Of a DNA stretch of 64,000 bases, positions 3,025-35,379 are shown piece after piece. Origin of the DNA: Rhodocyclaceae bacterium (lineage in GTDB: Bacteria > Pseudomonadota > Gammaproteobacteria > Burkholderiales > Rhodocyclaceae); NCBI GenBank assembly GCA_030824275.1, contig JAVBXY010000005.1, forward strand, positions 1 to 64,000. Direction: 5' to 3'. The translations under genes and the position numbers were made by a program. Positions within the stretch are counted from its first letter, which is position 1. Each line of letters begins with the position of its first letter. The notes below the pieces were generated by a model, which saw nothing but the letters and a program-made list of their open reading frames with translations, searched no databases and was not told where the DNA came from.

Positions 3025-3034
3025 GAGGTAAGAC

Positions 3035-3316: not shown

Positions 3317-3325
3317 GGAGCGACA

Positions 3326-3655: not shown

Positions 3656-3664
3656 GGGGATCCC

Positions 3665-4546: not shown

Positions 4547-4549
4547 AGC

Positions 4550-4963: not shown

Positions 4964-4966
4964 GTC

Positions 4967-5161
4967 ATGAAAGCTATCGATTTGAGAGCAAAGTCTGACG
5001 AGGACCTGCAAAAGGAGCTGCTCGAGTTGCGACGTGCGCAATTCGGTCTCCGCATGCAAGTGGCCACGCAGCAGCTGACCAATACGAGTCAGATAGGGAA
5101 AGTGCGCAAGGATATCGCGCGTGTAAAAACCATCCAGCGTGAAAAGGCGGCGGCAAAATGA
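4967..5161 (+). CDS. rpmC: 50S ribosomal protein L29
   Basis: A 64-residue, mostly alpha-helical L29 ([18 protein letters not shown]). It lies near the tunnel exit next to L23. The last 4 bases overlap the rpsQ start (ATGA). Confidence 0.98.
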
Positions 5162-5430
5162 CCGAAGCGACCACACAAACCGTACGTCGCACCCTTCAGG
5201 GCCGTGTCGTGTCGGACAAAATGCAGAAAACCGTCACCGTTTTGGTTGAGCGTAAAGTCAAGCATCCGGTCATCGGCAAGATATTGACCCGCTCGAAGAA
5301 GTATCACGCTCACGTCGAAGGCCTGGAAACGGTTGAGGGCGATCTGGTTCAAATCGAGGAATGTGCACCGATCTCGAAAACCAAGGCTTGGCGTGTTGCT
5401 CAGGTTTTGGAAAAAGCCCGTATCGTTTGA
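5158..5430 (+). CDS. rpsQ: 30S ribosomal protein S17
   Basis: A 90-residue S17 with the OB-fold core ([20 protein letters not shown]) that binds 16S rRNA early in assembly. It is the last gene of the S10 operon and is followed by a hairpin and a new promoter. Confidence 0.98.
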
Positions 5431-5436
5431 TGTAAG

Positions 5437-5466
5437 CCGGAGACTCCGGTAGCCCGCAGTCTCCGG
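5437..5466 (+). terminator. Perfect inverted repeat after rpsQ (weak terminator or RNA stem)
   Basis: CCGGAGACT (5437-5445) pairs with AGTCTCCGG (5458-5466) across a 12-base loop. No T-run follows, so intrinsic termination is uncertain. It may be an mRNA-stabilising 3' stem at the S10/spc boundary. Confidence 0.45.
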
Positions 5467-5481
5467 AAGTACAAATAGTAG

Positions 5482-5509
5482 TTGACAACGCGGTGGTGAG
5501 GTGTAAAAT
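5482..5509 (+). promoter_or_regulatory. Sigma-70 promoter of the spc operon
   Basis: A consensus TTGACA (5482-5487) is followed after 16 bases by TAAAAT (5504-5509). This is the best -35 box seen in the window. The predicted start leaves a leader of about 110 bases before rplN. Confidence 0.75.
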
Positions 5510-5624
5510 CTCGCCTCTTTGCTCCGTCGGGCCAGAGGATTTGGTTCCGGCATTCCAGCCCCTAGCGGGCTCCAAGACTGACTGCAGCTGCCAAGCGGAT
5601 GCGGATTAAGTTGGAGATGAAAAT

Positions 5625-5993
5625 ATGATTCAAATGCAGTCAATGCTGGACGTCGCCGATAATACCGGTGCGCGCTCCGTCATGTGCATCAAGGTTCTTG
5701 GTGGCTCCAAGCGTCGGTACGCCGGCATTGGTGATGTCATCAAGGTCAGCATCAAGGATGCTGCACCTCGTGGTCGCGTGAAAAAGGGTGAAGTCTACAG
5801 TGCTGTGGTTGTGCGCACCGCCAAGGGCGTGCGCCGGGCAGATGGTTCGCTCGTTAAATTCGATGGCAATGCTGCTGTGTTGCTGAATAACAAGCTGGAG
5901 CCCATTGGCACCCGTATCTTCGGCCCGGTGACGCGTGAGTTGCGTACCGAGCGTTTCATGAAGATCGTTTCGCTGGCTCCCGAGGTTCTCTGA
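5625..5993 (+). CDS. rplN: 50S ribosomal protein L14
   Basis: A 122-residue L14 ([24 protein letters not shown]). It sits at the subunit interface and is the target of the silencing factor RsfS. It is the first gene of the spc operon, behind its own promoter and a gene-free spacer of 194 bases. Confidence 0.98.
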
Positions 5994-6013
5994 ACCGGAA
6001 CTCGAGGACTCAC

Positions 6014-6331
6014 ATGAACAAGATTCGCAAAGGGGATGACGTCGTTGTCCTGACCGGTAAAGACAAGGGTAAGCGCGGTGTTGTGCTGGCCTGGCTCGAT
6101 GATGAGCATTTGGTTGTCGAGGGTATCAACCGCGTCAAGAAGCACACCAAGCCCAACCCTCTCAAGGGTAACCCGGGGGGCATTACCGAGAAGGAAATGC
6201 CCATCAATATTTCCAATGTGGCGCTGTTCAATCCTGCCACCCAGAAAGCGGATCGCGTCGGTTTCAAGTTTCTCGACGATGGCCGTAAGGTTCGGGTGTT
6301 CAAGTCGAACGGCGAAGTTGTCGACGCGTAA
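6014..6331 (+). CDS. rplX: 50S ribosomal protein L24
   Basis: A 105-residue L24 with the N-terminal KOW motif ([17 protein letters not shown], about residues 5-21). It initiates 50S assembly near the tunnel exit. Length is standard. Confidence 0.98.
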
Positions 6332-6340
6332 GGATCAGTC

Positions 6341-6880
6341 ATGGCGCGCTTGCAGGAATATTACAAACAGACGGTGGCACCTGAGCTTCTAGCGAAGTTC
6401 GGCTACAAGTCCATCATGGAAGTTCCCCGTATCACCAAGATCACGCTGAATATGGGCGTGGGCGAGGCTGTCGGCGACAAGAAGGTATTGGAGCATGCGG
6501 TTGGTGATATGACCAAAATCGCTGGTCAAAAGCCTGTCGTTACTAAGGCTCGCAAGGCTATCGCGGGATTCAAGATTCGCGAAGGTTATCCGATTGGCTG
6601 CATGGTGACTTTGCGGGGCAATCAGATGTACGAGTTTCTCGATCGTCTGGTGACTGTTGCGATGCCTCGAATTCGTGACTTTCGAGGTATTTCCGGTAAA
6701 GGCTTCGATGGCCGCGGAAACTACAACGTAGGGGTTAAAGAGCAGATCATTTTCCCTGAGATCGAGTACGACAAGATTGATGCGTTGCGCGGCATGAACA
6801 TCAGCATCACCACAACTGCGAAGACGGACGACGAAGCTAAGGCGCTTCTCGCTGCTTTCAAGTTCCCCTTCAAGAATTGA
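6341..6880 (+). CDS. rplE: 50S ribosomal protein L5
   Basis: A 179-residue L5 ([21 protein letters not shown]). It binds 5S rRNA in the central protuberance and contacts P-site tRNA. The conserved end [18 protein letters not shown] is intact. Confidence 0.98.
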
Positions 6881-6887
6881 GGGACAT

Positions 6888-7193
6888 ATGGCGAAACTAG
6901 CTCTTATTAATCGCGAAGAGAAGCGTGCGAAGACGGTGGCGAAGTATGCTGCCAAGCGCGCTGCACTGATTGCGGTGATCAATAACGTAAGTCTGTCGGA
7001 AGAGGAGCGTATGGATGCGCGCCTCAAGATGCAGCAGCTTCCGCGCAATGCAAGTCCTTCGCGTCAGCGTAATCGTTGTGCGCTGACGGGACGTCCGCGT
7101 GGCGTGTTCCGCAAATTCGGCCTGTGCCGCAACAAGCTGCGCGAGATTGCTATGCGCGGCGAAGTGCCTGGCATGACCAAGGCAAGCTGGTAA
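6888..7193 (+). CDS. rpsN: 30S ribosomal protein S14 (long, zinc-free form)
   Basis: A 101-residue S14 of the long C-minus type: the short zinc-binding form would have paired CxxC motifs, which are absent. The C-terminal motif [19 protein letters not shown] is typical. It acts in the 30S head. Confidence 0.98.
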
Positions 7194-7203
7194 GGAGACC
7201 GAT

Positions 7204-7599
7204 ATGAGTATGACCGATCCGGTTGCCGATATGCTGACCCGCATCCGCAATGCGCAGATGGCGGAGAAAGTATCAGTATCCATGCCTTCTTCCAAGCTCA
7301 AGGTGGCGATTGCCAAGGTGCTGAAGGATGAGGGTTACATTGATGATTTCGCTGTACGCGAAAACGGTGCAAAGCCCGAGCTTGATTTGGCGCTGAAGTA
7401 CTACGCCGGCCGTCCGGTGATCGAGCGTATCGAGCGTATTTCGAAGCCTGGTCTTCGTGTCTACCGCGGCAAGGATGATCTTCCGCGCGTCATGAACGGG
7501 CTAGGTGTTGCCATCGTCTCTACGCCGAAGGGTGTGATGACTGACCGCAAGGCGCGGGCTGGCAACATGGGTGGCGAAGTTCTCTGCATCGTCGCCTAA
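7204..7599 (+). CDS. rpsH: 30S ribosomal protein S8
   Basis: A 131-residue S8 ([18 protein letters not shown]). In E. coli S8 binds its own mRNA near rplE and represses the spc operon. Whether this holds here needs a structure comparison of the rplX-rplE junction. Length and C-terminal motif ([17 protein letters not shown]) are normal. Confidence 0.98.
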
Positions 7600-7611
7600 G
7601 GGAGCTCAAAA

Positions 7612-8145
7612 ATGTCACGTATTGCAAAATATCCCGTAGATGTGCCGAAGGGTGTCGAAGTGGTCCTGGGAGCGACTGAGATCAGCATCAAGGGTCCGTT
7701 GGGCACCTTGAAGCAGGCGATGCTTCCCGCTGTCAAAATTGATCGCGAAGGCGAGCAGTTGATGTGTCGCGCCCTCGAAGGGCAGCCGAATGCAGGCGCG
7801 ATGTCCGGCACCATGCGTGCGCTGGTCAATAACATGGTTGCCGGTGTCACCAAGGGCTTCGAGAAGAAGCTCACTCTGGTTGGCGTCGGCTATCGTGCCC
7901 AGGCGCAAGGTAGCAAGCTGAATTTGACGTTGGGCTTCTCGCACCCGGTGGTGCATGACATGCCGAATGGCATCAAGGTTGAGACGCCGACCCAGACCGA
8001 GATCCTGATCAAGGGTATCGACAAGCAGGTGGTTGGTCAGGTGGCCGCTGAGATTCGTGCGTATCGTTCGCCGGAGCCCTATAAGGGCAAGGGTGTGCGG
8101 TACTCCGACGAGGTGGTTGTCATCAAGGAAACCAAGAAGAAATAA
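7612..8145 (+). CDS. rplF: 50S ribosomal protein L6
   Basis: A 177-residue L6 made of two similar domains, ending in the conserved region [15 protein letters not shown]. It lies near the sarcin-ricin loop and the L7/L12 stalk base. Confidence 0.98.
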
Positions 8146-8161
8146 TCGAGGCGCGTAAATC

Positions 8162-8515
8162 ATGGACAAGAAACAGAGTCGTCTGCGCAGGGCGCGCAAA
8201 ACCCGCGCCAAGATTGCGGAGCTCAAGATGGTGCGCCTCGCCGTGCATCGGAGCAATACCCACATCTCCGCACAGATTTTTTCCGACTGCGGTACCCGTG
8301 TTTTGGCGGCCGCTTCCACGATGGAACAGGATGTGCGCGGCAAGGTAGCCAACGGCGGTAATGTCGCTGCGGCAAAACTTGTCGGGCAACTCATTGCCGA
8401 GCGAGCCAAGGCTGCCGGTATTGGTGAGGTTGCATTTGATCGTTCCGGGTTCCACTATCACGGCCGCGTCAAGGCGCTGGCTGAAGCCGCCCGTGAGGGC
8501 GGACTTAAGTTCTAA
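8162..8515 (+). CDS. rplR: 50S ribosomal protein L18
   Basis: A 117-residue L18 with a basic N-terminus ([18 protein letters not shown]) that binds 5S rRNA. The C-terminal [23 protein letters not shown] region is conserved. Confidence 0.98.
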
Positions 8516-8526
8516 GCGAGACGGAC

Positions 8527-9054
8527 ATGGCTAAACCACAAGGCAAGAAACAGCAGCAGGCCCAGGAAGAGCGTGATGATGGCATGCGCGAAAAGATGGT
8601 TTCCATCAATCGCGTTACCAAGGTCGTCAAGGGCGGGCGTATCCTCGGCTTTGCCGCTCTGACCGTCGTCGGTGACGGCGATGGTGGCGTCGGCATGGGC
8701 AAGGGCAAGTCGCGAGAAGTTCCCGTTGCTGTGCAGAAGGCAATGGAAGAAGCCCGCCGCAAGATGAACAAGGTTAGTCTCAAGGATGGCACGCTGCATC
8801 ACCCGGTTACCGGCAAGCATGGTGCGACCACCGTTCTGATGTCTCCGGCAGCTGCTGGTACTGGCGTTATTGCCGGCGGCCCGATGCGCGCCGTGTTCGA
8901 AGTCATGGGCGTGACCGACGTGGTTGCCAAGACCATCGGTTCGACCAATCCCTACAACGTGGTTCGCGCCACGCTGAATGGTTTGCTGGCCATGAACACG
9001 CCGGCTGAAATCGCCGCCAAGCGTGGCAAAGCCATTGCAGAAATTCTGGAGTAA
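8527..9054 (+). CDS. rpsE: 30S ribosomal protein S5
   Basis: A 175-residue S5 with the double-stranded RNA-binding-like N-terminal domain (about residues 20-85, including [20 protein letters not shown]). It lies at the mRNA entry channel and helps to control decoding accuracy. Confidence 0.98.
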
Positions 9055-9057
9055 GCC

Positions 9058-9240
9058 ATGGCCGAAAAGAAGATCAAGGTAACGCTGGTGAAAAGCATCA
9101 TCGGCACGAAGCAGGATCATCGCGCTACCGTGCGCGGTCTGGGCCTGCGCAGGCTTAACAGTTCCGCCCTCCTTGAGGATACGCCGGCGGTTCGCGGCAT
9201 GATCCGCAAGGTGGCGTACCTTGTGAAGTGCGAAGGTTAA
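9058..9240 (+). CDS. rpmD: 50S ribosomal protein L30
   Basis: A 60-residue L30 ([19 protein letters not shown]). It is small and dispensable in some lineages but intact here. It starts 3 bases after rpsE. Confidence 0.98.
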
Positions 9241-9251
9241 GGGGAACTCGA

Positions 9252-9707
9252 ATGAGCATGGAACTGAATAACATCAAGCCCGCGGCCGGTGCCAAGCACG
9301 CCGCCAAACGCGTTGGCCGAGGTATAGGCAGCGGGTTGGGCAAAACTGCCGGTCGTGGTCATAAAGGCCAGAAATCCCGCGCCGGTGGCTTCCACAAGGT
9401 CGGTTTCGAAGGCGGTCAGATGCCTTTGCAGCGTCGTCTGCCGAAGCGTGGTTTCGTTTCGCTTACCGCGAGCCGGAACGTCGAGGTTCGCCTGTCGGAA
9501 CTGGACAAGCTTCCCGTCGAAGAAATCGACCTGTTGGTCTTGAAGCAGGCTGGCGTGATTGCCGGTGATGCTCTGTCGGCCAAAGTCATCCTCTCCGGCA
9601 AGCTTAACCGCAAGGTTTCGCTCAAGGGCGTCGGCGCCACCAAAGGTGCTCGTGCCGCTATCGAAGCCGCCGGTGGTTCCGTGGCTGACATCGCTGCTGC
9701 TGCCTGA
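9252..9707 (+). CDS. rplO: 50S ribosomal protein L15
   Basis: L15 with the Gly/Arg-rich N-terminus ([23 protein letters not shown]) that penetrates 23S rRNA. I chose the ATG at 9252 ([13 protein letters not shown], 151 residues) because AAGGGGA lies about 7 bases upstream. A start at 9258 is possible. An upstream start at 9228 would overlap rpmD and adds no conserved residues. Confidence 0.96.
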
Positions 9708-9720
9708 GTAGGTAAACGAC

Positions 9721-11049
9721 GTGGCTAATCCGCAAGCTGCTGCTCTTGGCAAGACCGGAAAGTTCGGCGACCTCTGGCGCCGACTCTGGTTCTTGCTGGG
9801 CGCGCTTGTGGTCTACCGGATTGGTGCGCACATTCCGGTCCCCGGCATCGACCCTGTCAAGCTGGCCGAGTTGTTCCAGTCCCAGCAGGGTGGCATTCTG
9901 GGCATTTTCAACTTGTTCTCCGGCGGCGCATTGTCGCGCTTCACGCTGTTCGCGCTGGGCATCATGCCTTACATCTCCGCGTCGATCATCATGCAGTTGA
10001 TGACGATTGCAGTGCCCTCCATGGAGGCACTGAAGAAGGAAGGTGAAGCTGGACGGCGCAAGATTACGCAATACACCCGCTATGGCACGGTCGCTTTGGC
10101 GCTGTTCCAGGGCATTGGGATCGCTATCGCGCTTGAATCGCAACCGGGATTGGTGCTTGATCCTGGCATGTTGTTCCGCTTCGTTACCGTGATGACCCTG
10201 CTCACCGGAACGATGTTCCTGATGTGGCTGGGTGAGCAGATCACAGAGCGCGGTCTGGGCAACGGTATTTCGATCATCATTTTCGCCGGTATCGCGGCTG
10301 GCTTGCCGAGTTCCCTTGGCGGCTTGTTCGAGTTGGTTCGTACGGGTGCCATGCATCCGGTGTCTGCTCTGTTTATCTGCCTAGTTGCGGTGCTCGTTAC
10401 GGCCTTCGTCGTATTCGTCGAGCGGGGCCAGCGCAAGATTCTGGTGAACTACGCCAAGCGCCAAGTTGGCAATAAGGTGTACGGCGGACAGAGTTCCCAT
10501 CTGCCGCTCAAGCTGAACATGTCTGGCGTCATCCCGCCGATCTTTGCCTCGTCGATCATTCTCTTCCCTGCGACGGCAGCTGGTTGGTTCGGTTCCGGTG
10601 AGAGCATGCGCTGGCTGAAGGATGTTGCTGGCTCCCTGTCGCCCGGTCAGCCTATCTATGTGTTGCTTTACGCGGCTGCTATTGTCTTCTTCTGCTTCTT
10701 CTACACCGCCCTTGTGTTCAATTCCAAGGAGACTGCGGACAACCTTAAGAAGAGCGGCGCCTTCGTCCCCGGCATTCGCCCCGGCGATCAGACCGCTCGT
10801 TATATCGACAAAATTCTGACCCGCCTGACCCTGGCCGGTGCGCTTTACATCACGCTGGTATGTCTGCTGCCAGAGTTTTTGATCCTGAAGTGGAATGTCC
10901 CCTTCTACTTTGGCGGCACGAGTCTTTTGATTATTGTGGTCGTAACCATGGACTTTATGTCCCAAGTTCAGGCCTACATCATGTCGCACCAGTACGAGAG
11001 TTTGTTGAAGAAGGCCAATTTCAAGGGAGCGGGGTTTCCGGCTCGCTGA
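9721..11049 (+). CDS. secY: Protein translocase subunit SecY
   Basis: A 442-residue membrane protein with ten predicted transmembrane segments, forming the channel of the Sec translocon with SecE and SecG. Typical motifs include [14 protein letters not shown] in the first loop, [14 protein letters not shown] (TM2) and [19 protein letters not shown] before TM7. It uses a GTG start at 9721. Placement after rplO in the spc operon is standard. Confidence 0.98.
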
Positions 11050-11051
11050 GA

Positions 11052-11270
11052 ATGGCGAAGGAAGAGTCAATTGAAATGCAGGGAGAGGTTGTCGAGAATC
11101 TCCCGAATGCTACGTTCCGAATCAAGCTGGAAAACGGGCATGTAGTTCTCGGCCATATTTCGGGAAAGATGCGCATGCACTACATACGCATTCTTCCCGG
11201 TGACAAGGTTACCGTGCAGTTGACGCCTTACGACCTATCCAGGGCCCGTATCGTCTTCCGCGCCAAGTAA
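11052..11270 (+). CDS. infA: Translation initiation factor IF-1
   Basis: A 72-residue OB-fold protein ([19 protein letters not shown], ending [13 protein letters not shown]). It binds the 30S A site during initiation. The start at 11052 is two bases after the secY stop. An upstream extension in the same frame would run through secY and is rejected. Confidence 0.97.
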
Positions 11271-11301
11271 GTTAGTAAAGCAACATTTCCGGAGAATTCC
11301 A

Positions 11302-11415
11302 ATGAAAGTTATGGCTTCGGTGAAGCGTATCTGTCGTAATTGTAAAGTCATCCGTCGCAAGGGCGTGGTGAGGATCATTTGTACCGATCCGCGCCACAAG
11401 CAGCGTCAGGGTTGA
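11302..11415 (+). CDS. rpmJ: 50S ribosomal protein L36
   Basis: A 37-residue protein, [19 protein letters not shown] followed by [18 protein letters not shown]. It is the zinc-binding (C-plus) form, with Cys11, Cys14, Cys27 and His33 as likely ligands. A GGAGA Shine-Dalgarno lies upstream. Its stop codon overlaps the -35 box of the next promoter. Confidence 0.97.
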
Positions 11416-11440
11416 TTGATCAATCCGGATCGGATACAAT
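11412..11440 (+). promoter_or_regulatory. Sigma-70 promoter of the alpha operon
   Basis: TTGATT (11412-11417) and TACAAT (11435-11440) are spaced by 17 bases. The -35 box overlaps the rpmJ stop codon. It would drive rpsM-rpsK-rpsD-rpoA-rplQ, with a leader of about 60 bases. Confidence 0.7.
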
Positions 11441-11506
11441 CTACGGTTTCCCGTTTTTCGGCTAGCCCCCAATTAACCGCTCAAGCGGCTACGAACAGGT
11501 AAGCAA

Positions 11507-11872
11507 ATGGCTCGTATTGCAGGCGTCAACATACCGAATCATCAACACACCGAGATCGCATTGACGGCGATCTACGGCATTGGTCGCACCCGCGCACAGA
11601 AGATCTGTGATGCGGCTGGCATCAAGCGTTCGACCAAAATCAAAGAACTCACGGATAGCGAAATGGATCGCTTGCGTGAAGAAGTGGGCAAGTTCACCGT
11701 CGAGGGCGATCTTCGCCGCGAGACGACCATGAACATCAAGCGCCTCATGGACCTTGGTTGCTATCGCGGCGTGCGTCATCGCCGTGGTCTGCCGGTTCGT
11801 GGTCAGCGCACCCGCACGAATGCCCGTACCCGCAAGGGGCCGCGCAAGGCGATTTCGATGGGTAAGAAGTAA
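11507..11872 (+). CDS. rpsM: 30S ribosomal protein S13
   Basis: A 121-residue S13 ([21 protein letters not shown]). It forms intersubunit bridges and touches P-site tRNA with its basic C-terminus ([18 protein letters not shown]). It is the first gene of the alpha operon. Confidence 0.98.
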
Positions 11873-11887
11873 ACCAGGAACGATTAA

Positions 11888-12277
11888 ATGGCCAAGACCG
11901 CAACCAAAGTCCGCAAGAAGGTCAAGAAGAACGTTGCCGAGGGCATTGCCCACGTTCACGCTTCCTTCAATAACACGATCATCACCATCACCGACCGTCA
12001 GGGCAATGCCCTGTCGTGGGCGACCTCCGGCGGTGCCGGCTTCAAGGGCTCCCGCAAGTCGACTCCCTTTGCCGCCCAGATCGCGGCCGAGGCTGCCGGC
12101 AAGGCTGCTCAGGAATGTGGTGTGAAGAACCTCGAGGTTCGCATCAAGGGCCCTGGCCCCGGTCGCGAATCCGCTGTCCGCGCGCTCAATGCGCTGGGCA
12201 TGAAGATCACCAGCATCACCGATATCACTCCGATTCCCCACAACGGATGCCGGCCGCCCAAGCGCCGCCGCATCTAA
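11888..12277 (+). CDS. rpsK: 30S ribosomal protein S11
   Basis: A 129-residue S11 with the conserved [22 protein letters not shown] segment and the [14 protein letters not shown] motif. It lies on the 30S platform near the Shine-Dalgarno helix. Confidence 0.98.
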
Positions 12278-12297
12278 GGCAATAAGGATACGACACC

Positions 12298-12927
12298 ATG
12301 GCCCGCAACCTGGACCCAAAGTGCCGCCAGTGCCGCCGCGAGGGCGAAAAGCTCTTTCTCAAAGGCGAGAAGTGCTTCACTGACAAATGTTCCGTTGAAC
12401 GCCGCGCCTATGCGCCCGGCCAGCATGGCCAGAAGTCCGGCCAGCGCCTGTCCGGCTATGGCACGCAACTTCGCGAAAAGCAGAAGATCCGTCGCATCTA
12501 CGGCATTCTCGAGCGCCAGTTCCGCAAAGTGTTCGGCGAAGCCGAGCGCAAGAAGGGACAGACCGGCGAGAACCTGCTCAAGCTGCTCGAAGGTCGTCTT
12601 GATGCCGTTGCCTATCGCATGGGCTTCGGTGCTTCCCGTGCAGAAGCCCGTCAGATCGTTCGCCACAATGGCGTTCTGGTTAACGGCAAGCGCGTGAATA
12701 TTCCTTCCTACACGCTGCGTCCGGGCGATGTGGTCCAGCTGGTCGATGCAACGCGTGGTCACCTGCGTACCAAGGCTGCTCTCGAAGCCGCCGAGTCGCG
12801 CGGTTTCCCTGAATGGCTGGAAGTGGATGCCAAGGCCGCCAAGGGCGTCTTCAAGTCCTACCCCGCCCGTGAAGACCTGCCGCCTTCGATCAACGAAGGC
12901 CTGGTCGTCGAACTGTATTCGCGCTAA
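12298..12927 (+). CDS. rpsD: 30S ribosomal protein S4 (zinc-binding form)
   Basis: A 209-residue S4, a primary 16S rRNA binder. The N-terminus has Cys9, Cys12, Cys26 and Cys31 ([20 protein letters not shown]), the ligands of the zinc-containing C-plus form; E. coli S4 lacks them. The S4 RNA-binding domain lies at about residues 95-155 ([14 protein letters not shown]). In E. coli S4 represses the alpha operon. Confidence 0.98.
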
Positions 12928-12938
12928 TACGTAGTCCC

Positions 12939-12967
12939 GCGCCTGGCGTCCTGTGGACGTCAGGCGC
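12939..12967 (+). promoter_or_regulatory. Strong RNA hairpin between rpsD and rpoA
   Basis: GCGCCTGGCGTCC (12939-12951) pairs with GGACGTCAGGCGC (12955-12967) over a 3-base loop; in RNA all 13 pairs form, one as G-U. Only ATTTCC follows, not a T-run, so it looks more like an attenuator, processing site or stability element than a full terminator. Confidence 0.55.
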
Positions 12968-12988
12968 ATTTCCTTTGAGGGAATGCTG

Positions 12989-13966
12989 ATGCACACACTT
13001 CTGAAGCCCCGCAGTATCGATGTCCAGCAGCTTTCGCCGGTCCATGCCCGCGTGGTCATGGAGCCGTTCGAACGTGGCTATGGCCACACGCTTGGCAACG
13101 CGCTGCGCCGCATCCTGCTGTCGTCCATGGAGGGCGTTGCGCCCACCGAGGTCTCGATTGAAGGCGTTCTGCACGAGTACTCCACGCTGGAAGGCGTGCG
13201 TGAGGACGTCGTTGATATCCTCCTGAACCTCAAGGGCGTCGTGCTGAAGATGCACAATCGTCGCGAAGCCACCCTGAGCCTGTCGAAAGACGGCGAAGGC
13301 ATCGTGACCGCTGGCGACATCGAGACCACTCACGACGTCGAGATCGTCAATCCCGATCACGTCATTGCCCGCATCGCCCCCGGCGGCAAGCTGAAGATGC
13401 AGATCCGTGTTGAGTCCGGTCGTGGCTACGTGCCCGCCAACCAGCGTCAGATCGCCCGCGAGAACCTGGCCATCGGCCAGATCATGCTGGATGCCTCCTT
13501 CAGCCCGGTGCGTCGCGTCAGCTATCACGTCGAGTCCGCCCGTGTCGAACAGCGTACCGACCTGGACAAGCTGATCCTTGACATCGAGACCAACGGCGCC
13601 ATCGACAATGCCGAAGAGGCTGTGCGTACCGCCGCTCGCATCCTGATGGAACAGCTGACGGTGTTTGCGGACCTCGAAGGCACCCCGATGACCACCGATA
13701 CGCCGAAGGCCACCTCGGTGGACCCGGTGCTGGTGCGTCCTGTGGACGATCTGGAACTGACCGTGCGCTCCGCCAACTGCCTCAAGGCCGAGAACATCTA
13801 TTACATCGGTGATCTGATTCAGCGCACCGAAACCGAGCTGCTGAAGACTCCGAACCTGGGTCGCAAGTCGCTCAACGAAATCAAGGAAGTGCTGGCTTCG
13901 CGTGGCCTGACCTTGGGAATGAAGCTGGAAAGCTGGCCGCCCGCCGGTCTCGAAAAGCTCTCCTGA
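12989..13966 (+). CDS. rpoA: DNA-directed RNA polymerase subunit alpha
   Basis: RNA polymerase alpha, 325 residues from the ATG at 12989 ([15 protein letters not shown]). This start has GAGGGA six bases upstream; the ATG at 12983 would have none. The N-terminal domain (1-235) dimerises and holds the beta subunits ([21 protein letters not shown]). The C-terminal domain (about 250-325, ending with [14 protein letters not shown]) binds UP elements and activators. Confidence 0.97.
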
Positions 13967-14041
13967 TCTTTTTTAATACTCGACAACCATTAACCGGCCC
14001 TTTGCATTGCGCGGGGGCCGCAAAAAAACGAGGAATACATC

Positions 14042-14437
14042 ATGCGTCACGGTAACGGACTCCGCAAACTCAACCGCACCTCGGCTCACCGCCAGGCGAT
14101 GCTGCGCAACATGGCAGTTTCCCTGCTGCGCCACGAGGCCATCAAGACCACCCTGCCGAAGGCCAAGGAACTGCGCCGCGTCGTTGAGCCTCTGATCACC
14201 CTGGGCAAGAACCCGAGCCTGGCCAACCGCCGCCTCGCGTTTGACCGCACCCGTGATCGCGACATCGTCGGCAAGCTGTTCAACGAACTCGGCCCGCGTT
14301 ACGCTGCCCGCAATGGCGGCTACCTGCGCATCCTGAAAATGGGCTTCCGCGTTGGCGACAATGCACCGATGGCTTTCGTTGAACTGATGGACCGCCCGGC
14401 TGCTGACGAAGCTGCCGAGGTCGCAACCGCCGAATAA
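14042..14437 (+). CDS. rplQ: 50S ribosomal protein L17
   Basis: A 131-residue L17 ([21 protein letters not shown]). It sits near the tunnel exit. It is the last gene of the alpha operon and is followed by a strong terminator shared with the convergent cysN. Confidence 0.98.
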
Positions 14438-14499: not shown

Positions 14500-15792
14500 T
14501 CAGAGAATCATGCCGGCGCCGACCGTGTTGTTGGTGGATTCGTCAATGATGATGAAGGCACCGGTGGCGCGATTCTCGGCGTAGCGATCCACGCACAGAG
14601 GTTGGGCCAGCTTGAAGGAGACCTTGGCGATGTCGTTCATGGCGAGGCGCTCCGCCGGAGCTTGCTCCAGACTGTTGATGTCCACGCGATAGCTGATGCC
14701 GCCAACCATGGCTTTGCTTTCCCGGGTGGTTTGGCGTACTAGGTACTTGCGCTGGGGATCGAGGGGTGCTTCGGCCAACCAGCAGACCATGGCGTCGATT
14801 TGCCGTGTCACCAGGGCCGACTTCTCCGGATGCACCATCATGTCGCCGCGGGATATGTCGATCTCGTCCTCCAGCAGCAGCGTCACTGACTGCTCGGCGA
14901 AGGCGCGCGGAAGGGACTGGCCGTAGAGCTGGATGTCCTTGATCCGCGTGCGCCGCTCGGAGGGCAGCACCACGATCTCGTCGCCGACGGCCACTTCGCC
15001 GGATTCGACGCGGCCCATGAAGCCCCGATAGTCGTGCAGCTTGGGATCATCGGCCTTCTGCGGGCGGCAGACGTACTGCACGGGGAAGCGGAAGCGTTCA
15101 TCGCTCTCCGTATGCGCCGCCGGTGCCGATTCCAGAATGTCCAGCAAGGTCGGGCCCTGATACCAGCCGAGACGCTCGCCCCGATCCACGATCATGTCGC
15201 CGTTGAGGGCGGATAGCGGAATGAAGCGCACGTCCTTGATGCCGAGCTGTGCGGCGAAGGCGAGGTACTCGCCACGGATGCGCTCGAACACGGCCTGGTC
15301 GTAATCAACCAGGTCCATCTTGTTGATCGCCACGACCAGATGCGGGATGCCGACCAGGTGCGCCAGGTAGGAGTGACGACGGGTCTGGGTCAGGATGCCC
15401 TTGCGCGCATCCACCAGGATGATCGCCAGATTGGCCGTCGAGGCCGCCGTCACCATGTTGCGGGTGTACTGCTCGTGGCCCGGCGCGTCGGCGATGATGT
15501 ACTTGCGGCGGCCGGTGGTGAAGTAGCGGTAGGCCACATCAATGGTGATGCCCTGCTCGCGCTCGGCCTGGAGGCCATCGGTGAGCAGGGACAGATCCAC
15601 CGCTTCGAGGCCGCGCCGATGCGAGGTGCGCTCGATGGAATGCAGGGTGTCGGCGAGGATGGTCTTGGTGTCGAACAGCAGTCGGCCGATCAGCGTGCTC
15701 TTGCCGTCGTCCACGCTGCCGCAGGTGAGAAAGCGCAGCAGGCCGTTATCCACGGGCTGTTCGAATTCGGGCAGACGTTCAATCGCGCTCAT
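14500..15792 (-). CDS. cysN: Sulfate adenylyltransferase subunit 1 (GTPase)
   Basis: CysN is the GTPase subunit of ATP sulfurylase and couples GTP hydrolysis to APS synthesis. The 430-residue protein has G1 GSVDDGKSTLIGRLL (about 32-46), G3 DAPGHEQY and G4 NKMD, then EF-Tu-like beta-barrel domains. No APS kinase (CysC) domain is fused at the end. The ATG at 15792 overlaps the cysD stop (TGATG). An upstream extension would run inside cysD and is rejected. Confidence 0.96.
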   Translation of the reverse strand: MSAIERLPEFEQPVDNGLLRFLTCGSVDDGKSTLIGRLLFDTKTILADTLHSIERTSHRRGLEAVDLSLLTDGLQAEREQGITIDVAYRYFTTGRRKYIIADAPGHEQYTRNMVTAASTANLAIILVDARKGILTQTRRHSYLAHLVGIPHLVVAINKMDLVDYDQAVFERIRGEYLAFAAQLGIKDVRFIPLSALNGDMIVDRGERLGWYQGPTLLDILESAPAAHTESDERFRFPVQYVCRPQKADDPKLHDYRGFMGRVESGEVAVGDEIVVLPSERRTRIKDIQLYGQSLPRAFAEQSVTLLLEDEIDISRGDMMVHPEKSALVTRQIDAMVCWLAEAPLDPQRKYLVRQTTRESKAMVGGISYRVDINSLEQAPAERLAMNDIAKVSFKLAQPLCVDRYAENRATGAFIIIDESTNNTVGAGMIL

Positions 15793-17481: not shown

Positions 17482-17994
17482 TCAGGCGGCGCGGCGACGG
17501 AACAGCGGTAGGGGCTGGTCGGTGCCGGTCTGGTAGACCTCGGGGAAGTCGGTGAAGGCGGCCAGGGCCTCGTCGATATTGCGTTCTTCAGGAATCAGGA
17601 AGCTGTCGAAGCCGACGCGCTGGAGCAGGAAAATCTGGTCGCGGCCCACATCGCCGACGGCGCGCAACTCGCCCTTGTAGCCATGGCGTTCGCGCAGCAG
17701 GCGGGCGGTGGAGTAGCCGCGACCATCGGTGAATTTCGGGAACTCGACGGCGATCAACGCGAAGCGGCCGAGGTCGCCGGCAATCTCGGCCGGATCAAAA
17801 GTCGGCCCTAGCGAGACGGCGATATCACCGCCTCGAGCCAGCAGTTCGTCGCGCCGGGCAAGCCACAGGGGAGCCGGAATCAGCACCGGCCCCGGTGGCA
17901 GGATCACCAGTGTCGGGTCTTCGCCTTTCGTCAGTTCGATGCGCAACCACCGATTACCGACGGCGCCGCTCTTGCGGATGAGTTGATCAGGCAT
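17482..17994 (-). CDS. DUF934 family protein of the sulfur assimilation operon
   Basis: A 170-residue protein starting MPDQLIRKSGAV at 17994. It carries the family signature FPKFTDGRGYSTARLLRER (about residues 89-107). DUF934 genes lie next to cysI and cysH across proteobacteria and are assumed to help sulfite reduction, but the reaction is not known to me. It overlaps the cysI-like gene by 8 bases. A copy of the 25-bp repeat lies at 17797-17821 and encodes AVSLGPTF-like residues in a variable segment. Confidence 0.85.
   Translation of the reverse strand: MPDQLIRKSGAVGNRWLRIELTKGEDPTLVILPPGPVLIPAPLWLARRDELLARGGDIAVSLGPTFDPAEIAGDLGRFALIAVEFPKFTDGRGYSTARLLRERHGYKGELRAVGDVGRDQIFLLQRVGFDSFLIPEERNIDEALAAFTDFPEVYQTGTDQPLPLFRRRAA
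17797..17821 (+). repeat. 25-bp dispersed repeat, copy within the DUF934 gene
   Basis: It begins AAAAGTCGGCCCT and ends AGCGAGACGGCG, three differences from the family pattern (left half AAAAGTCGGCGCT, right half GGCGGGACGGCG). It is the leftmost copy. Orientation is opposite to the host gene. This copy is more diverged, so membership is likely but less sure. Confidence 0.6.
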
Positions 17995-20555: not shown

Positions 20556-21497
20556 ATGAAACTCCAGCAACTGCGCTACCTAGTGGAAATCGAGCGGCGG
20601 GGCCTGTCCGTGTCCGACGCCGCCGAGGCGCTGTTCACCTCCCAGCCCGGCATCTCCAAGCAGGTGCGCATGTTGGAGGAGGAACTCGGCGTGACGATCT
20701 TCGAGCGCAGCGGCAAGCGCCTCACCGGCATCACAGAGCCGGGCCGGCTGGTGCTCGACATGGCCGAGCGCATGCTGCGCGAGGCGCAGAATATGAAGCG
20801 GGTCGGCGAGGATTTCGCCGCCGAAGCGACGGGCGCCCTGTCCATCGCCACCACCCACACCCAGGCCCGCTATACATTACCGCCGGTGATCCGCCGTTTC
20901 GTGGATCGCCACCCCGGCGTCAAGCTGCACGTGCAGCAGGGCAGCCCGGTGCAGGTGGCCGAATGGGTGATCGACGGCACGGCCGATCTCGGCATCGCTA
21001 CCGAGGCTTTGGATCGACACCATGAACTGCTGACCCTGCCGTGTTACCAATGGTCCCATCTGGTGGTGGTACCGAAGGGCCACCCCTTGCTGGCGCGCGG
21101 GCCGGCAAGCCTGGCGACCCTGGCCGAATATCCGCTGATCACCTACGATGCCACCTTCACCGGCCGCTCGCATATCGACCGGGCCTTCGAACGCCAGGGC
21201 CTGCGGCCCAACGTCATGCTCACCGCCATCGATTCCGACGTGATCAAGACCTACGTCGAGTTGGGCCTGGGCGTCGGCATCATCGCCGAGATGGCCTTCG
21301 ATCCGCTGCGTGACACGGCCCTGGCCTCCGTGCCGGCCAATCACCTGTTCGAGGCCAACACCACGCGCCTGGCCTTCCGCCGCGATGCCTGGCTGCGAGC
21401 CTACGAATACGACTTCCTGGAACTGCTGGCGCCGCAACTGACGCGGCGCGTGGTGGAGGCGACCTTGCGAGGCGAAGGCGCCGATCCGGGTCTGTAA
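20556..21497 (+). CDS. cysB: LysR-type regulator CysB
   Basis: A 313-residue LysR-family protein. The N-terminal helix-turn-helix (about residues 3-60: LRYLVEIERRGLSVSDAAEAL) and the inducer domain with TTHTQARYTLPPVI and LPCYQWSHLVVVPKGHPL match CysB. CysB activates sulfate assimilation when sulfur is scarce and responds to N-acetylserine. It is divergent from the cys operon, as expected for its regulator. Its TAA is followed at once by the long form of the dispersed repeat. Confidence 0.94.
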   Translation: MKLQQLRYLVEIERRGLSVSDAAEALFTSQPGISKQVRMLEEELGVTIFERSGKRLTGITEPGRLVLDMAERMLREAQNMKRVGEDFAAEATGALSIATTHTQARYTLPPVIRRFVDRHPGVKLHVQQGSPVQVAEWVIDGTADLGIATEALDRHHELLTLPCYQWSHLVVVPKGHPLLARGPASLATLAEYPLITYDATFTGRSHIDRAFERQGLRPNVMLTAIDSDVIKTYVELGLGVGIIAEMAFDPLRDTALASVPANHLFEANTTRLAFRRDAWLRAYEYDFLELLAPQLTRRVVEATLRGEGADPGL

Positions 21498-21580
21498 AAG
21501 TCGGCGCTGATGAAGCTACTGCGCTACAAGGCGGTCGAGCAAAAAATGCTCTCCTCGCCGTAGCGGATGGCGAGACGGCG
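21496..21580 (+). repeat. 85-bp long form of the dispersed repeat, copy 1
   Basis: The left end (AAAAGTCGGCGCT) and right end (GGCGAGACGGCG) are those of the 25-bp form. Between them is a 60-bp cassette that folds: CGCTAC (21522-21527) with GTAGCG (21560-21565), GGCG (21530-21533) with CGCC (21556-21559), and GAGCA (21537-21541) with TGCTC (21547-21551), loop AAAAA. It begins within the cysB stop codon and fills most of the gap to the cyclase gene. Confidence 0.85.
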
Positions 21581-22479: not shown

Positions 22480-22483
22480 TCGT

Positions 22484-22508
22484 CGCCGTGTCGCTAGCGC
22501 CGACTTTT
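22484..22508 (-). repeat. 25-bp dispersed repeat, intergenic copy
   Basis: It reads, on the minus strand, AAAAGTCGGCGCT then AGCGACACGGCG. It starts 4 bases after the cyclase stop codon and lies exactly at the left edge of the AT-richer accessory patch. Confidence 0.75.
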
Positions 22509-26278: not shown

Positions 26279-26298
26279 GGATGCCTAGCGCCGCTTAT

Positions 26299-26323
26299 CG
26301 CCGTCCCGCCAGCGCCGACTTTT
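26299..26323 (-). repeat. 25-bp dispersed repeat at the gltI stop codon
   Basis: A full-consensus copy on the minus strand (AAAAGTCGGCGCT then GGCGGGACGGCG). Its A-run shares a base with the gltI TAA, so it sits exactly at the 3' end of the gene, between gltI and gltJ in one operon. Confidence 0.85.
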
Positions 26324-29854: not shown

Positions 29855-32158
29855 ATGATCTGGTTACTCGTACTTATCGCCGCCCTTGCGGCTGTGTTGT
29901 TCGTGCCGCCCCTGCGCCGCGCCGTCCTCACCGGCCCGGTGTTTGCGGTGTACAAGAAAATCCTGCCCTCCATGTCGCAGACCGAGAAGGAGGCTCTCGA
30001 AGCCGGCACGGTCTGGTGGGAGGGCGAGATGTTCTCCGGCAAGCCGCAATGGGAAAAACTGCTGGCCTATCCCAAGCCCACGCTCTCCGCCGTCGAGCAG
30101 TCCTTCCTCGACAACGAATGCGAGGAACTATGCCGCATGGTCAGCGACTGGGATACCACCCAGGTGCATCAAGACCTCGCGCCCGAGGCCTGGCAGTTCG
30201 TCAAGGACAAGGGCTTCCTCGGCATGATCATTCCCAAGCGCTACGGCGGCCTGGAGTTCTCGGCGCTGGCCCACTCGGCGGTGGTGCAGAAGCTGTCCAC
30301 CCGCTGTTCGGCCGCCGCCGTCTCGGTGATGGTGCCCAACTCCCTCGGCCCGGCGGAACTGCTGCTGCATTACGGCACCGAGGAACAGAAGAACCACTAT
30401 CTGCCGCGTCTGGCCAAGGGCCTGGAAATCCCGGCTTTCGCCCTGACCAACCCGAACGCCGGCTCCGACGCCGCCTCCATTCCCGACACCGGCATCGTCT
30501 GCAAGGGCATGTGGCAGGGCAAGGAAGTGCTGGGCATGCGCGTCACCTGGGACAAGCGCTACATCACGCTGGGCCCGATCTGCACCATTCTCGGCCTGGC
30601 CTTCCGCCTGAAGGACCCGGAGCATCTGCTCGGTGAGGTGGAAGATATCGGCATCACCTGCGCCCTGGTGCCCACCGACCATCCCGGCGTGAACATCGGC
30701 CGCCGCCACTTCCCGCTCAATGCCGTGTTCCAGAACGGCCCGAACTGGGGCAAGGACGTGTTCATGCCTCTGGAGTGGATCATCGGTGGCACCGCCATGG
30801 CTGGTCAGGGCTGGCGCATGCTGATGGAGTGTCTGGCGGCGGGTCGCTCGATTTCGCTGCCTTCGTCGAACACCGGCATGGCCAAGCTGGCGGTGCGCGG
30901 CACCGGCGGTTATTCGCGCGTGCGCAGCCAGTTCAAGACCGCCATCGGCAAGTTCGAGGGCATCGAAGAACCGCTGGCCCGCATGGGCGGCTACACCTAC
31001 ATGATGGATGCGGCGCGGACCATGACTGCCGGCGCCATCGACCTCGGCGAGAAGCCCTCGGTGGTCTCCGCCATCGTCAAGTACCACGTCACCGAGCGCG
31101 CCCGCACTGTCGTCAATGACGCCATGGATGTCCTCGGCGGCAAGGGCATCTGCCTGGGCCCCAACAACTTCATGGGCCGCGCCTACCAGCAGATTCCCGT
31201 CGCCATCACCGTCGAAGGCGCCAACATCCTGACCCGCAGCCTGATCATCTTCGGCCAGGGTGCGATCCGCTGCCATCCCTATGTGCTGGCCGAGATGCGC
31301 GCCGCGCAGGATGTGAACAACAATGCTGGCCTGCTGGCTTTCGATCAGGCGCTGGCCGGTCACGCCAGCTTCGCCGTCGGCAATGCACTGCGCGCGTTCT
31401 GGCATGGCCTTACCGGTTCCAATTTCGTTTCCGTGCCGGCCAACGTGGCGCCGGAAGCCAAGCGCTACTACCAGCAGCTCACCCGCTTCTCGGCCGCCTT
31501 CGCCTTCCTCTCCGACGTCTCCATGCTGGTGCTCGGCGGCGGTCTCAAGCGTCGCGAGAAGCTGTCGGCGCGTCTGGGCGACATCCTGTCGCTGATGTAC
31601 CTTGCATCCGCCACCCTCAAACGATACGAGGACGACGGTCGCCAGCAGGCCGATGCGCCGCTGCTGCACTGGGCCATCTGGGATGCGATGTTCAAGGCGC
31701 AGAACGCCTTCGAGGGCGTGCTCGCCAACTATCCGAGCAAGTTCGTCGCCTGGCTGCTGGCCCGCGTGATCTTCCCGCTGGGCCGTCCCTACGTCGTGCC
31801 CGCCGACGACCTCGGCCATGAAGTGGCGAAACTGCTCATCGCACCGTCCGCCACCCGTGATCGTCTGACCACCGGCATGTATGTGCCGCGTGATGAGAAC
31901 GATGCCATCGGTGTCATCGAACTGGCGCTGGAGGCCACGCTCGCCGCTGAGCCCATCGAAGCCAGGCAGCGCGCTGCGGCGAAAAAAGTCGGCGCTGGCG
32001 GAACGGCAATTTCTTTAACGGCGGAAGAAACCGCCCTGCTGCAACGACGCAACAGCCTGCGCGACAAGGTCGTCCGCGTCGATGACTTCCCCCAGGACTA
32101 CTCCGTCGAAGCCAACGGCGATGCGGGCGCTGCCGAAGCGCTGCGCCGTGCAGCCTAA
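29855..32158 (+). CDS. fadE: Long-chain acyl-CoA dehydrogenase, FadE type
   Basis: Catalyses the first oxidation step of beta-oxidation. The 767-residue protein has the large FadE layout: an N-terminal hydrophobic segment (about 2-22), the dehydrogenase core (about 80-500, with PNSLGPAELLLHYGTEEQ and ALTNPNAGSDAASIPD) and a C-terminal domain special to FadE. A strong AAGGAG precedes the ATG. The repeat at 31984-32008 adds VGAGGTA at about residue 712, in a linker near the end. It is the first structural gene of the fad operon. Confidence 0.95.
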   Translation: MIWLLVLIAALAAVLFVPPLRRAVLTGPVFAVYKKILPSMSQTEKEALEAGTVWWEGEMFSGKPQWEKLLAYPKPTLSAVEQSFLDNECEELCRMVSDWDTTQVHQDLAPEAWQFVKDKGFLGMIIPKRYGGLEFSALAHSAVVQKLSTRCSAAAVSVMVPNSLGPAELLLHYGTEEQKNHYLPRLAKGLEIPAFALTNPNAGSDAASIPDTGIVCKGMWQGKEVLGMRVTWDKRYITLGPICTILGLAFRLKDPEHLLGEVEDIGITCALVPTDHPGVNIGRRHFPLNAVFQNGPNWGKDVFMPLEWIIGGTAMAGQGWRMLMECLAAGRSISLPSSNTGMAKLAVRGTGGYSRVRSQFKTAIGKFEGIEEPLARMGGYTYMMDAARTMTAGAIDLGEKPSVVSAIVKYHVTERARTVVNDAMDVLGGKGICLGPNNFMGRAYQQIPVAITVEGANILTRSLIIFGQGAIRCHPYVLAEMRAAQDVNNNAGLLAFDQALAGHASFAVGNALRAFWHGLTGSNFVSVPANVAPEAKRYYQQLTRFSAAFAFLSDVSMLVLGGGLKRREKLSARLGDILSLMYLASATLKRYEDDGRQQADAPLLHWAIWDAMFKAQNAFEGVLANYPSKFVAWLLARVIFPLGRPYVVPADDLGHEVAKLLIAPSATRDRLTTGMYVPRDENDAIGVIELALEATLAAEPIEARQRAAAKKVGAGGTAISLTAEETALLQRRNSLRDKVVRVDDFPQDYSVEANGDAGAAEALRRAA
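31984..32008 (+). repeat. 25-bp dispersed repeat within fadE
   Basis: AAAAGTCGGCGCT then GGCGGAACGGCA, sense orientation, encoding Lys-Val-Gly-Ala-Gly-Gly-Thr-Ala near the C-terminus. Confidence 0.85.
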
Positions 32159-33460: not shown

Positions 33461-35379
33461 TGAAACACTGGACACTGCAACGCGACGCCGACGGCATCAC
33501 CTGGGCCATCCTCGACAAGGCCGGCGCCTCGACCAATACGCTGGGCGCCGAAGTCATGGCCGAACTGGGTCAGGTGCTCGACGAGTGCGACCGCAACCCG
33601 CCCAAGGGCCTGATCTTCAAGTCGGGCAAGGAAGCCGGCTTCATCGCCGGTGCCGACATCGAGGAGTTCACCACCCTCGACAGTCCGGAAAAGGCCCGCG
33701 CCCTGGTCCAGCGCGGCTGGGACATCTACAACCGTCTCGCCGCCGTGCGCTACCCGACCCTGGCCCTGGTGCGCGGCCACTGCATGGGCGGCGGCACGGA
33801 GCTGGCGCTGGCTTGCCGCTACCGCATCGCGGTGGATGAGCCGGGCACCAAGCTCGCCCTGCCCGAGGTGATGCTGGGCATCGTCCCCGGCTGGGGTGGC
33901 ATGCTGCGCCTGCCGCAGATCGTCGGTCCAGCCGCTGCGCTGGACATGATGCTGACGGGCAAAAACATCGACGCCAAGCGGGCCAAGCGCATGGGCCTGG
34001 CCGATGAATGCGTACCGCCTCGCGTCATGGAAAACGCGGCGCGCATGCTGGTGCTCTCCGGACAGTCGCCGCGCGAACTGCCCTTCATGCAGAAGCTGAT
34101 GAACGGCCCGCTCAAGTCCATGGTCGCCAACAAGGCCCGCGACCAGGTGGCCAAGCGCGCCAGCCCGCGCCACTACCCGGCGCCCTACGCCATCCTCGAT
34201 ATGTGGGCCAATTACGGCGGCAACGCGCTGGCCGTGCCGGTGGATAAACCGACCTCACTGGATTCAATCTTCGTTTCGCCGACGACCAAGAATCTGGTTC
34301 GCGTGTTCTTTTTTCAGGAGCGCCTGAAGGGCTTCGGCAAGGAGGCAGGAAGTTTTGCACCCCGTCACGTGCATGTGATTGGCGCCGGCGTCATGGGTGG
34401 CGACATCGCCGCCTGGTGTGCCCTGCGCGGCATGACGGTGACGCTGCAAGATCAGACCGTGGAGCGCATCGCGCCAGCCATGGCGCGTGCCGCCAAGCTG
34501 TTCGAGAAGAAGCTGCGTGACAAGAAGCTCGCCCGCTTCGCCCTCGACCGCCTGATCCCCGATCCGGCCGGCGACGGCGTGCGTCAGGCCGACGTGATCA
34601 TCGAAGCCATCTTCGAGAATCTGGAGGCCAAGCGCGCGCTCTTCGCCGACATTGAGCGCCGTGCCAAGCCCTCGGCTCTGCTGGCCTCGAACACCTCGTC
34701 GCTGAAACTTGCCGACATCGCCACTGCCCTGCAACAGCCGCAGCGCCTGGTCGGCATCCACTTCTTCAATCCGGTGGCGATGATGCCGCTGGTGGAAGTG
34801 GTGGCCGGCGCTACGACCTCACCGGATGTGGCCAAACAGGCTGCCGCCTTCGTGCGCAAGATCGACAAGCTGCCGCTGCCGGTCAAGGACGCGCCGGGCT
34901 TCCTCGTGAATGCCGTACTGGCGCCCTACATGAACGAGGCCCTGCGCTGTATCGACGAAGGCATGTCGCCCGAGACCATTGACGCTGCCATGCTGGCTTT
35001 CGGCATGCCCATGGGGCCGGTGGAGTTGGCTGATACGGTGGGCCTTGATGTGGCGGTGGCCGTCGGCGAGCAACTGGTCGGTGGCAACGATGCCCCGAAG
35101 AAAGTGCTTGAACTCGTCAAGGCCGGCAAGCTGGGCAAGAAATCCGGCGAAGGCTTCTATCGCTACGTGGACGGCAAGGCGCAAAAAGTCGGCGCTGGCG
35201 GGACGGCGCCGGAAGAACTCGCGCAGCGCCTCGTCGCACCGCTGCTGCAAGCGGCCAAGCGCCTGGTCGAGCAGGGCGTTGTCGCCGATGCGGAACTGGC
35301 CGATGCCGGGGTGATTTTCGGCACGGGTTTCGCGCCCTATACTGGAGGCCCGCTGAACTATCTCCAAAGCCGACCATGA
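33460..35379 (+). CDS. fadJ: Enoyl-CoA hydratase / 3-hydroxyacyl-CoA dehydrogenase (FadJ/FadB type)
   Basis: The bifunctional alpha subunit of the beta-oxidation complex, 639 residues from the ATG at 33460. The N-terminal crotonase domain (1-190) has FIAGADIEEF and GHCMGGGTELALACRYRIA. The NAD-binding domain starts near residue 305 (HVIGAGVMGGDIAAWC), with SNTSSLKL and HFFNPVAMMPLVEVV. It is shorter than E. coli FadJ (714). A repeat copy adds VGAGGTA at about residues 577-583, in the C-terminal dehydrogenase region. Confidence 0.94.
   Translation: MKHWTLQRDADGITWAILDKAGASTNTLGAEVMAELGQVLDECDRNPPKGLIFKSGKEAGFIAGADIEEFTTLDSPEKARALVQRGWDIYNRLAAVRYPTLALVRGHCMGGGTELALACRYRIAVDEPGTKLALPEVMLGIVPGWGGMLRLPQIVGPAAALDMMLTGKNIDAKRAKRMGLADECVPPRVMENAARMLVLSGQSPRELPFMQKLMNGPLKSMVANKARDQVAKRASPRHYPAPYAILDMWANYGGNALAVPVDKPTSLDSIFVSPTTKNLVRVFFFQERLKGFGKEAGSFAPRHVHVIGAGVMGGDIAAWCALRGMTVTLQDQTVERIAPAMARAAKLFEKKLRDKKLARFALDRLIPDPAGDGVRQADVIIEAIFENLEAKRALFADIERRAKPSALLASNTSSLKLADIATALQQPQRLVGIHFFNPVAMMPLVEVVAGATTSPDVAKQAAAFVRKIDKLPLPVKDAPGFLVNAVLAPYMNEALRCIDEGMSPETIDAAMLAFGMPMGPVELADTVGLDVAVAVGEQLVGGNDAPKKVLELVKAGKLGKKSGEGFYRYVDGKAQKVGAGGTAPEELAQRLVAPLLQAAKRLVEQGVVADAELADAGVIFGTGFAPYTGGPLNYLQSRP
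35184..35208 (+). repeat. 25-bp dispersed repeat within fadJ
   Basis: Full-consensus copy in sense orientation, encoding Lys-Val-Gly-Ala-Gly-Gly-Thr-Ala. It follows the conserved GEGFYRYVDGK segment by a few codons. Confidence 0.88.

Follow-up and report, generated by a model that had tools for sequence, protein, structure and literature searches.

Several kinds of small repeats and mobile sequences bear on the locus described here. Insertion sequences of the IS200/IS605 family insert after a short preferred sequence without target duplication and need a hairpin, and very small hairpin repeats are known as the small dispersed repeats of cyanobacteria and the GC clusters of yeast mitochondria, the latter of which nest. 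Uptake sequences are, to our knowledge, established in two families only. Concerted change of a short motif across the genome characterises the uptake-sequence dialects of the Neisseriaceae (PMC3630211), and a bias toward gene ends, resembling the enrichment that we report below, has been described for the uptake sequences of Pasteurellaceae (PMC2346458). Rickettsia palindromic elements (RPE) lie in frame within protein genes, with a conserved peptide in one frame (PMC10969869), and in a REP study of SBW25 14 of 1,067 16-mers overlapped genes (PMC3116915). The partial library that was searched contained no paper dealing with REP or uptake sequences for Rhodocyclales.

The window, by which we mean the whole 64,000-nucleotide stretch of DNA that was analysed, belongs to a 3.58 Mb assembly that is 85% complete and contains a repeat in a short and a long form. 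Our reading, to which we give a probability of roughly 0.58, is that two things are superposed at this locus: a short motif that appears to be an uptake-sequence-like tag with genus-level dialects, for which sequence patterns suggest a role in DNA uptake, and a 60-bp mobile hairpin that targets the centre of the tag. If the motif is an uptake tag, the two would form a pair, a tag and its parasite, that has not been described before.

Architecture of the Long and Short Copies

The two long copies in the window are, as the original prediction stated, exactly 85 bp each, and they are 92% identical to one another. Each begins with a left arm of 13 bp (AAAAGTCGGCGCT), continues with the cassette of 60 bp (GATGAA...GCGGAT), and ends with a right arm of 12 bp (GGCGNNACGGCG). 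Joined directly, the two arms give the short element (AAAAGTCGGCGCTGGCGNNACGGCG / AAGTCGGCGCTGGCGNNACGGCGA), so the first 13 and last 12 bases are indeed its halves. With up to three mismatches allowed, the window contains 14 short copies, against 0.00 expected from 100 shuffles. The whole assembly contains 746 short copies (368 forward, 378 reverse; 0 in a backwards control) and about 14 full long copies. The features of the window are as follows.

21496-21508, plus strand: left arm of long copy 1 (first half of the short motif), starting inside the TAA stop of a LysR-type gene (20556-21497)
21509-21568, plus strand: 60-bp cassette of long copy 1, with stems 21522-21527/21560-21565, 21530-21533/21556-21559, and 21537-21540/21548-21551
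21569-21580, plus strand: right arm of long copy 1 (second half of the short motif)
47821-47833, plus strand: left arm of long copy 2, starting at the final base of the stop codon (TGA) of a ribD-like gene (46748-47821)
47834-47893, plus strand: 60-bp cassette of long copy 2
47894-47905, plus strand: right arm of long copy 2, running into the end of a minus-strand gene predicted at 47898-48902
14800-14823, minus strand: short motif, 3 mismatches, within an EF-Tu-like GTPase gene, frame KSALVTRQ
17799-17822, plus strand: short motif, 2 mismatches, antisense to a DUF934 gene
22483-22506, minus strand: short motif, 1 mismatch, intergenic, with a stop codon 3 bp before
26298-26321, minus strand: short motif, exact, between two minus-strand genes, adjoining a stop codon
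29368-29391, plus strand: short motif in a TetR gene, frame VGAGDTA; equal length at the site in relatives
31986-32009, plus strand: short motif in an acyl-CoA dehydrogenase gene, frame KVGAGGTA
35186-35209, plus strand: short motif in a fadB-like gene, frame KVGAGGTA
37252-37275, minus strand: short motif, 2 mismatches, intergenic
44526-44549, minus strand: short motif, exact, antisense to a phosphoglycerate-mutase-like (histidine phosphatase) gene
46902-46925, plus strand: short motif, exact, in the ribD-like gene, frame KVGAGGTA
52012-52035, minus strand: short motif, exact, in an M23 peptidase gene, frame KVGAGGTA
55133-55156, plus strand: short motif, 2 mismatches, adjoining a TAA stop codon
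56755-56778, plus strand: short motif, 2 mismatches, intergenic
63518-63541, plus strand: short motif, 1 mismatch, close to the window end

Positions 1-14437 contain no motif copies, and the 14 short and 2 long copies lie in the remaining 49.6 kb; the ribosomal protein operon region with secY and rpoA spans 197-14437. We considered this motif-free stretch as a prophage and rejected the idea, as Pfam identifies ribosomal protein and secY/rpoA genes there; the ribosomal protein operon is a highly constrained region. A plasmid search with the long form as the query gave no match.

The Cassette Hairpin

All three stems named in the original prediction (CGCTAC/GTAGCG, GGCG/CGCC, and GAGC/GCTC) are present in the cassette. 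Folding of single cassette sequences is only moderately better than that of shuffles (z -1.8 to -2.25). Across 94 distinct cassettes, 99.1% of the stem cells hold standard pairs and 63 changes affect both sides of a pair, against 20.1 +/- 3.0 after shuffling. Kinship among the copies inflates such counts, yet controls in which the stem partners are slid retain the kinship and drop to 0-2. The predicted three-part hairpin is real, with strong covariation, and is under constraint as a paired stem. Its stem occurs in the subtypes CTAC/GTAG, CAGC/GCTG, and, rarely, CAAC/GTTG. Classical MITE features are absent: the cassette ends GATGAA/GCGGAT are not inverted repeats, and the target is not duplicated at the IS91 codon described below.

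Long and Short Forms at Orthologous Sites

A scan with the cassette core led to loci of about 30 Rhodocyclales-related assemblies. The relatives that carry the cassette are mainly Rhodocyclales MAGs and isolates, e.g., Sulfuritalea, Sulfurisoma, and Rugosibacter; some contigs are labelled Novosphingobium or Gammaproteobacteria, possibly through binning errors. Judged by these relatives, the host of the window very probably belongs to the Rhodocyclales. Comparison of flanks identified 14 orthologous sites with the long form in one Rhodocyclales species and the short form in another, in the same orientation, with a length difference that is mostly exactly the 60 bp of the cassette and in a few cases is accompanied by extra flank differences. 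Among them are nuoG (L093 long, G000 short), an intergenic site (L067/L173), and a thioredoxin-like gene that is long in L148 and L191 and short in G001. These pairs bear out the proposal that the two forms differ by a foldable 60-bp cassette, by which the short one is opened. The suggestion that the two forms are switchable found no support; differences were seen between species only and never within one genome.

Both halves of the short motif are found at the joints in 110 of 139 classified cassette-like hits, a set that includes a few chance matches. Long copies lacking the short-copy ends, which the original prediction had named as counterevidence, are thus not the rule, nor did short copies whose halves misalign to the joints occur as a rule. 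Because a minority of cassettes sits outside the short motif, either within another cassette or in sequence unrelated to it (IS91 codon, L153 site, L078), the cassette is an entity separate from the short element. Nesting occurs in 14 of the 139 hits, at GCTCT^CCTC, the inner cassette being mostly of the CAGC/GCTG subtype and the outer of the CTAC/GTAG subtype. In L167, a cassette splits a TAT codon of an IS91-family transposase gene; the flanks, when rejoined, align to the intact gene of an Azonexus plasmid with no base duplicated or lost. At another locus, L153 has a single cassette, G001 has two nested, and G000 and G008 are empty. GCT or TCT precedes the cassette in nearly all copies, the exception being the L153 type.

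Further arrangements were seen among the copies. L126:230-330 has an apparent triple nesting with three successive right arms (CCTCGCCGCTGCGTAT repeated). Copies in L128, L139, and L186 have one left arm and two right arms each, as expected from recombinational loss of one left arm in a nested pair. In L118:5580-5700 and L169:2810-2960, another hairpin (AAGAAGGGGCAGGACANAACCCTGCCCGCTTCGCTGCGGAT) abuts the cassette and replaces its first bases, and this hairpin is possibly a second small element family.

Cassettes Inside Protein Genes

The cassette is exactly 20 codons long and is free of stops in its common frame (DEATALQGGRAK[DN]ALLAVAD). Of 30 same-strand long copies inside one predicted gene, as called by a simple self-trained codon-usage model rather than a standard annotator, 27 share a single phase, which reads KVGADEATALQGGRAK[DN]ALLAVADG.TA. 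The host genes, named from family knowledge rather than by profile search, are presumably valS (L102), ileS (L120), ksgA (L124), and nuoG (L093), and we take two further hosts to be formate dehydrogenase (L155) and moaE (L178). Since 60 bp corresponds to 20 codons without stops, the cassette survives in frame within essential genes. One long copy in comEC of G000 is read in a second frame and has a GTTG/CAAC stem; the common GTAG stem would produce a TAG stop in that frame, which the GTTG/CAAC stem avoids. It is one of two long copies of the CAAC/GTTG type, L014 and L013 (G000 C20:152238 and 154177), that lie ~2 kb apart at comEC.

Distribution, Dialects, and Origin of the Short Motif

The short motif, approximately AAAAGTCGGC-GCTGGCGNN-ACGGCGA, has about 20 fixed bases and is bipartite, its two outer blocks being fixed and its middle loose. 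Its density is ~0.2 per kb. In 864 kb of G000, for which the predicted coding share is 90%, 72 copies are sense in genes, 68 antisense, and 60 intergenic (70% genic). The reading frames of the 72 sense copies are distributed 60:10:2 (chi-square p 1e-18), giving KVGAG.TA. Sense copies are enriched at the 3' ends of genes (last quintile) and antisense copies at both ends. Head-to-head pairs, which would be terminator-like, number only three in the 864 kb.

Copy numbers among the relatives are patchy, with about 720-750 in G000, G001, and G008, 187 in G019, 43 in G023, and few or none elsewhere. Neither of the complete genomes G019 and G023 contains a cassette; the short motif, this survey suggests, exists without it. 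G014 has a single match to the motif together with 529 copies of a variant, AGTTGGTGCTGGTGNNACGCCG, and its cassettes are flanked by arms of that same dialect.

At the TetR gene, many relatives have other sequence of the same length where the motif stands, and in an ABC transporter gene the motif coincides with the usual lead-in to the Walker A region, with no length change relative to relatives. Eleven of 17 genic motif sites are common to G000 and the other genus G001. Small indels against relatives are more frequent at short-motif sites than at control sites; the motif sites were compared at the protein level, and raw blastn gap counts are noisy. The short motif may arise by substitution at tolerant places and not by insertion, with pure substitution demonstrated at only a few sites.

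Because the motif is abundant on both strands, sits in genes, and has a frame bias, a gene-end bias, and a genome-wide dialect, its profile is that of an uptake sequence. ComEC was found in all eight genomes tested, including two without motif copies, and its presence is therefore not discriminating for an uptake role. The motif could instead be a binding site for another genome-wide process, such as segregation, nucleoid organization, or a repair or recombination hot spot, in which case the cassette would still target it. A long bipartite motif on both strands across the genome, with fixed outer blocks and a loose middle, is consistent with such a site, but the balance between strands is not, and the frame bias, gene-terminal bias, and genome-wide dialect replacement resemble uptake sequences. 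We regard this alternative as rather unlikely.

Direction of Change and Mode of Transfer

The original prediction left open whether short copies come from exact loss of the cassette or long ones from its insertion. The clean split of the IS91 codon, the locus that is empty, single, or double in different species, and the nesting favour insertion, and the direction of change is probably insertion for the most part. Were the long form ancestral, the short copies would be exact deletions of the cassette, e.g., between the GAT repeats. GAT does occur at both joints, as was noted originally, and this and the exact 60-bp differences between species agree with such a route; however, deletion between these repeats would leave one GAT, and no such product was present in the 1.87 Mb searched. 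Short copies outnumber long ones (746 vs ~14), those in the TetR and ABC genes align to relatives without length change, and clean insertions exist outside the motif, all of which makes the deletion route highly improbable. We give next to no credence to a regulatory RNA or terminator repeated by chance; several copies start at stop codons and the stems covary, but copies are frequent in frame in core genes and on both gene strands, and nothing around long copy 1 reaches the gathering score of any Rfam family. Spread as a REP/REPIN by a REP-associated tyrosine transposase (RAYT), with the long form as the mobile unit, agrees with the hundreds of short copies, the hairpin of the long form, and the Y1 genes present in 18 of 25 cassette-bearing genomes. 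With 70% of the short copies inside genes rather than extragenic, it is largely refuted and very unlikely. None of the enzymes of the kind that the original prediction proposed to look for (TnpA-REP, Y1) could be tied to the cassette. No RAYT was detected at E 1e-6 in G019 (complete, 187 copies) or in G000, where absence proves little because that assembly is incomplete (85%), and no RAYT-flanking pattern appeared elsewhere. Y1 and REP-associated transposase families, searched in the own genome, 299 family members, and the 25 cassette-bearing genomes, had no consistent link to the repeats; cassette copies near Y1 genes are scattered, and the Y1 genes are not flanked by cassettes. A conserved Y1 transposase beginning MPRRPR (about 240-265 aa; L085:1471-2187 in G008; L397-L423) is common in cassette-bearing genomes, with no evident repeat link.

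Exact insertion, nesting, empty sites, covariation, and in-frame placement are all observed. The cassette would be a separate 60-bp mobile hairpin that inserts mostly after ...GCT without target duplication, the latter judged from IS91, the only site where an empty gene is informative. Its preferred target appears to be the short motif at its exact midpoint (GCGCT^GGCG); another cassette (GCTCT^CCTC) is hit sometimes and a site elsewhere rarely. For its transfer we prefer insertion of a single strand on the 3' side of a CT-type site, which may use IS200/IS605-like chemistry supplied in trans, over spread by annealing at other motif copies. In the annealing scheme no enzyme is needed: a cassette-bearing strand pairs through its 13- and 12-nt arms with a short copy, and the folded 60-nt loop is copied in by templated slippage during repair, replication, or transformation. 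Target choice coincides with arm homology in 110 of 139 hits, the arms match the local dialect in G014, target duplication is absent, and no associated enzyme was found. Against it stand the insertions at the IS91 codon, the L153 site, and L078, where the sequence is unrelated, and the nesting at GCTCT^CCTC, all with little or no arm homology. Put together, arm annealing better fits the predominance of sites in the motif and the agreement of the arms with the dialect, whereas single-strand insertion better fits the nonmotif and nested sites; we consider annealing doubtful. No longer autonomous parent element was found between separated cassette halves in the sequence examined.

Taking the preferred reading of a tag and a mobile hairpin further, Rhodocyclales may have independently evolved a dialect-bearing uptake sequence and acquired an in-frame 60-bp hairpin parasite specialised on the tag centre, riding on the DNA that has the best chance of uptake and recombination and sparing the outer recognition blocks. 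We offer this as a tentative proposal, somewhat short of even odds. If true, it would add a third uptake-sequence family with a natural dialect shift, an independent test of uptake-sequence evolution.

Comparison with Known Systems

The cassette may resemble IS200/IS605 (Y1 HUH) elements in following a short preferred sequence, in the lack of target duplication, and in its hairpin, but it has one hairpin only and no enzyme assigned. The cyanobacterial small dispersed repeats and yeast mitochondrial GC clusters differ from it in sequence, host, and target. With REP/REPIN and RAYT the present system shares short repeats in the hundreds and a hairpin form of 80-100 bp, whereas the repeats here are mostly intragenic and have no inverted REP pair and no consistent RAYT. 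DNA uptake sequences (Neisseriaceae DUS, Pasteurellaceae USS) are likewise present in hundreds of copies on both strands, genic and intergenic, with a frame bias, a gene-terminus bias, and dialects common within lineages. Unlike these, the present motif is longer (~20 fixed bases vs the known cores) and bipartite, occurs in another order of Betaproteobacteria, and has a lower density.

The cassette's placement matches the description of the RPE, a small palindromic repeat that sits in frame within genes that are unrelated to one another and often essential (here 27/30 in one phase). The cassette is smaller (60 bp, or 85 bp with arms, vs about 150 bp), its host is Rhodocyclales and not Rickettsia, and it hits one exact point of a host motif and nests in itself. 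The 14 long/short ortholog pairs are natural experiments on protein tolerance and insertion mode. In this group of soil and water bacteria, the motif reaches ~750 copies per genome and the cassette enters at one exact point of it, sometimes adding 20 amino acids to the product of an essential gene. A 20-codon element that survives in tRNA synthetase and respiratory genes would be a second, apparently independent case of the selfish-DNA-in-protein puzzle of Rickettsia, and its target rule is precise enough to be tested.
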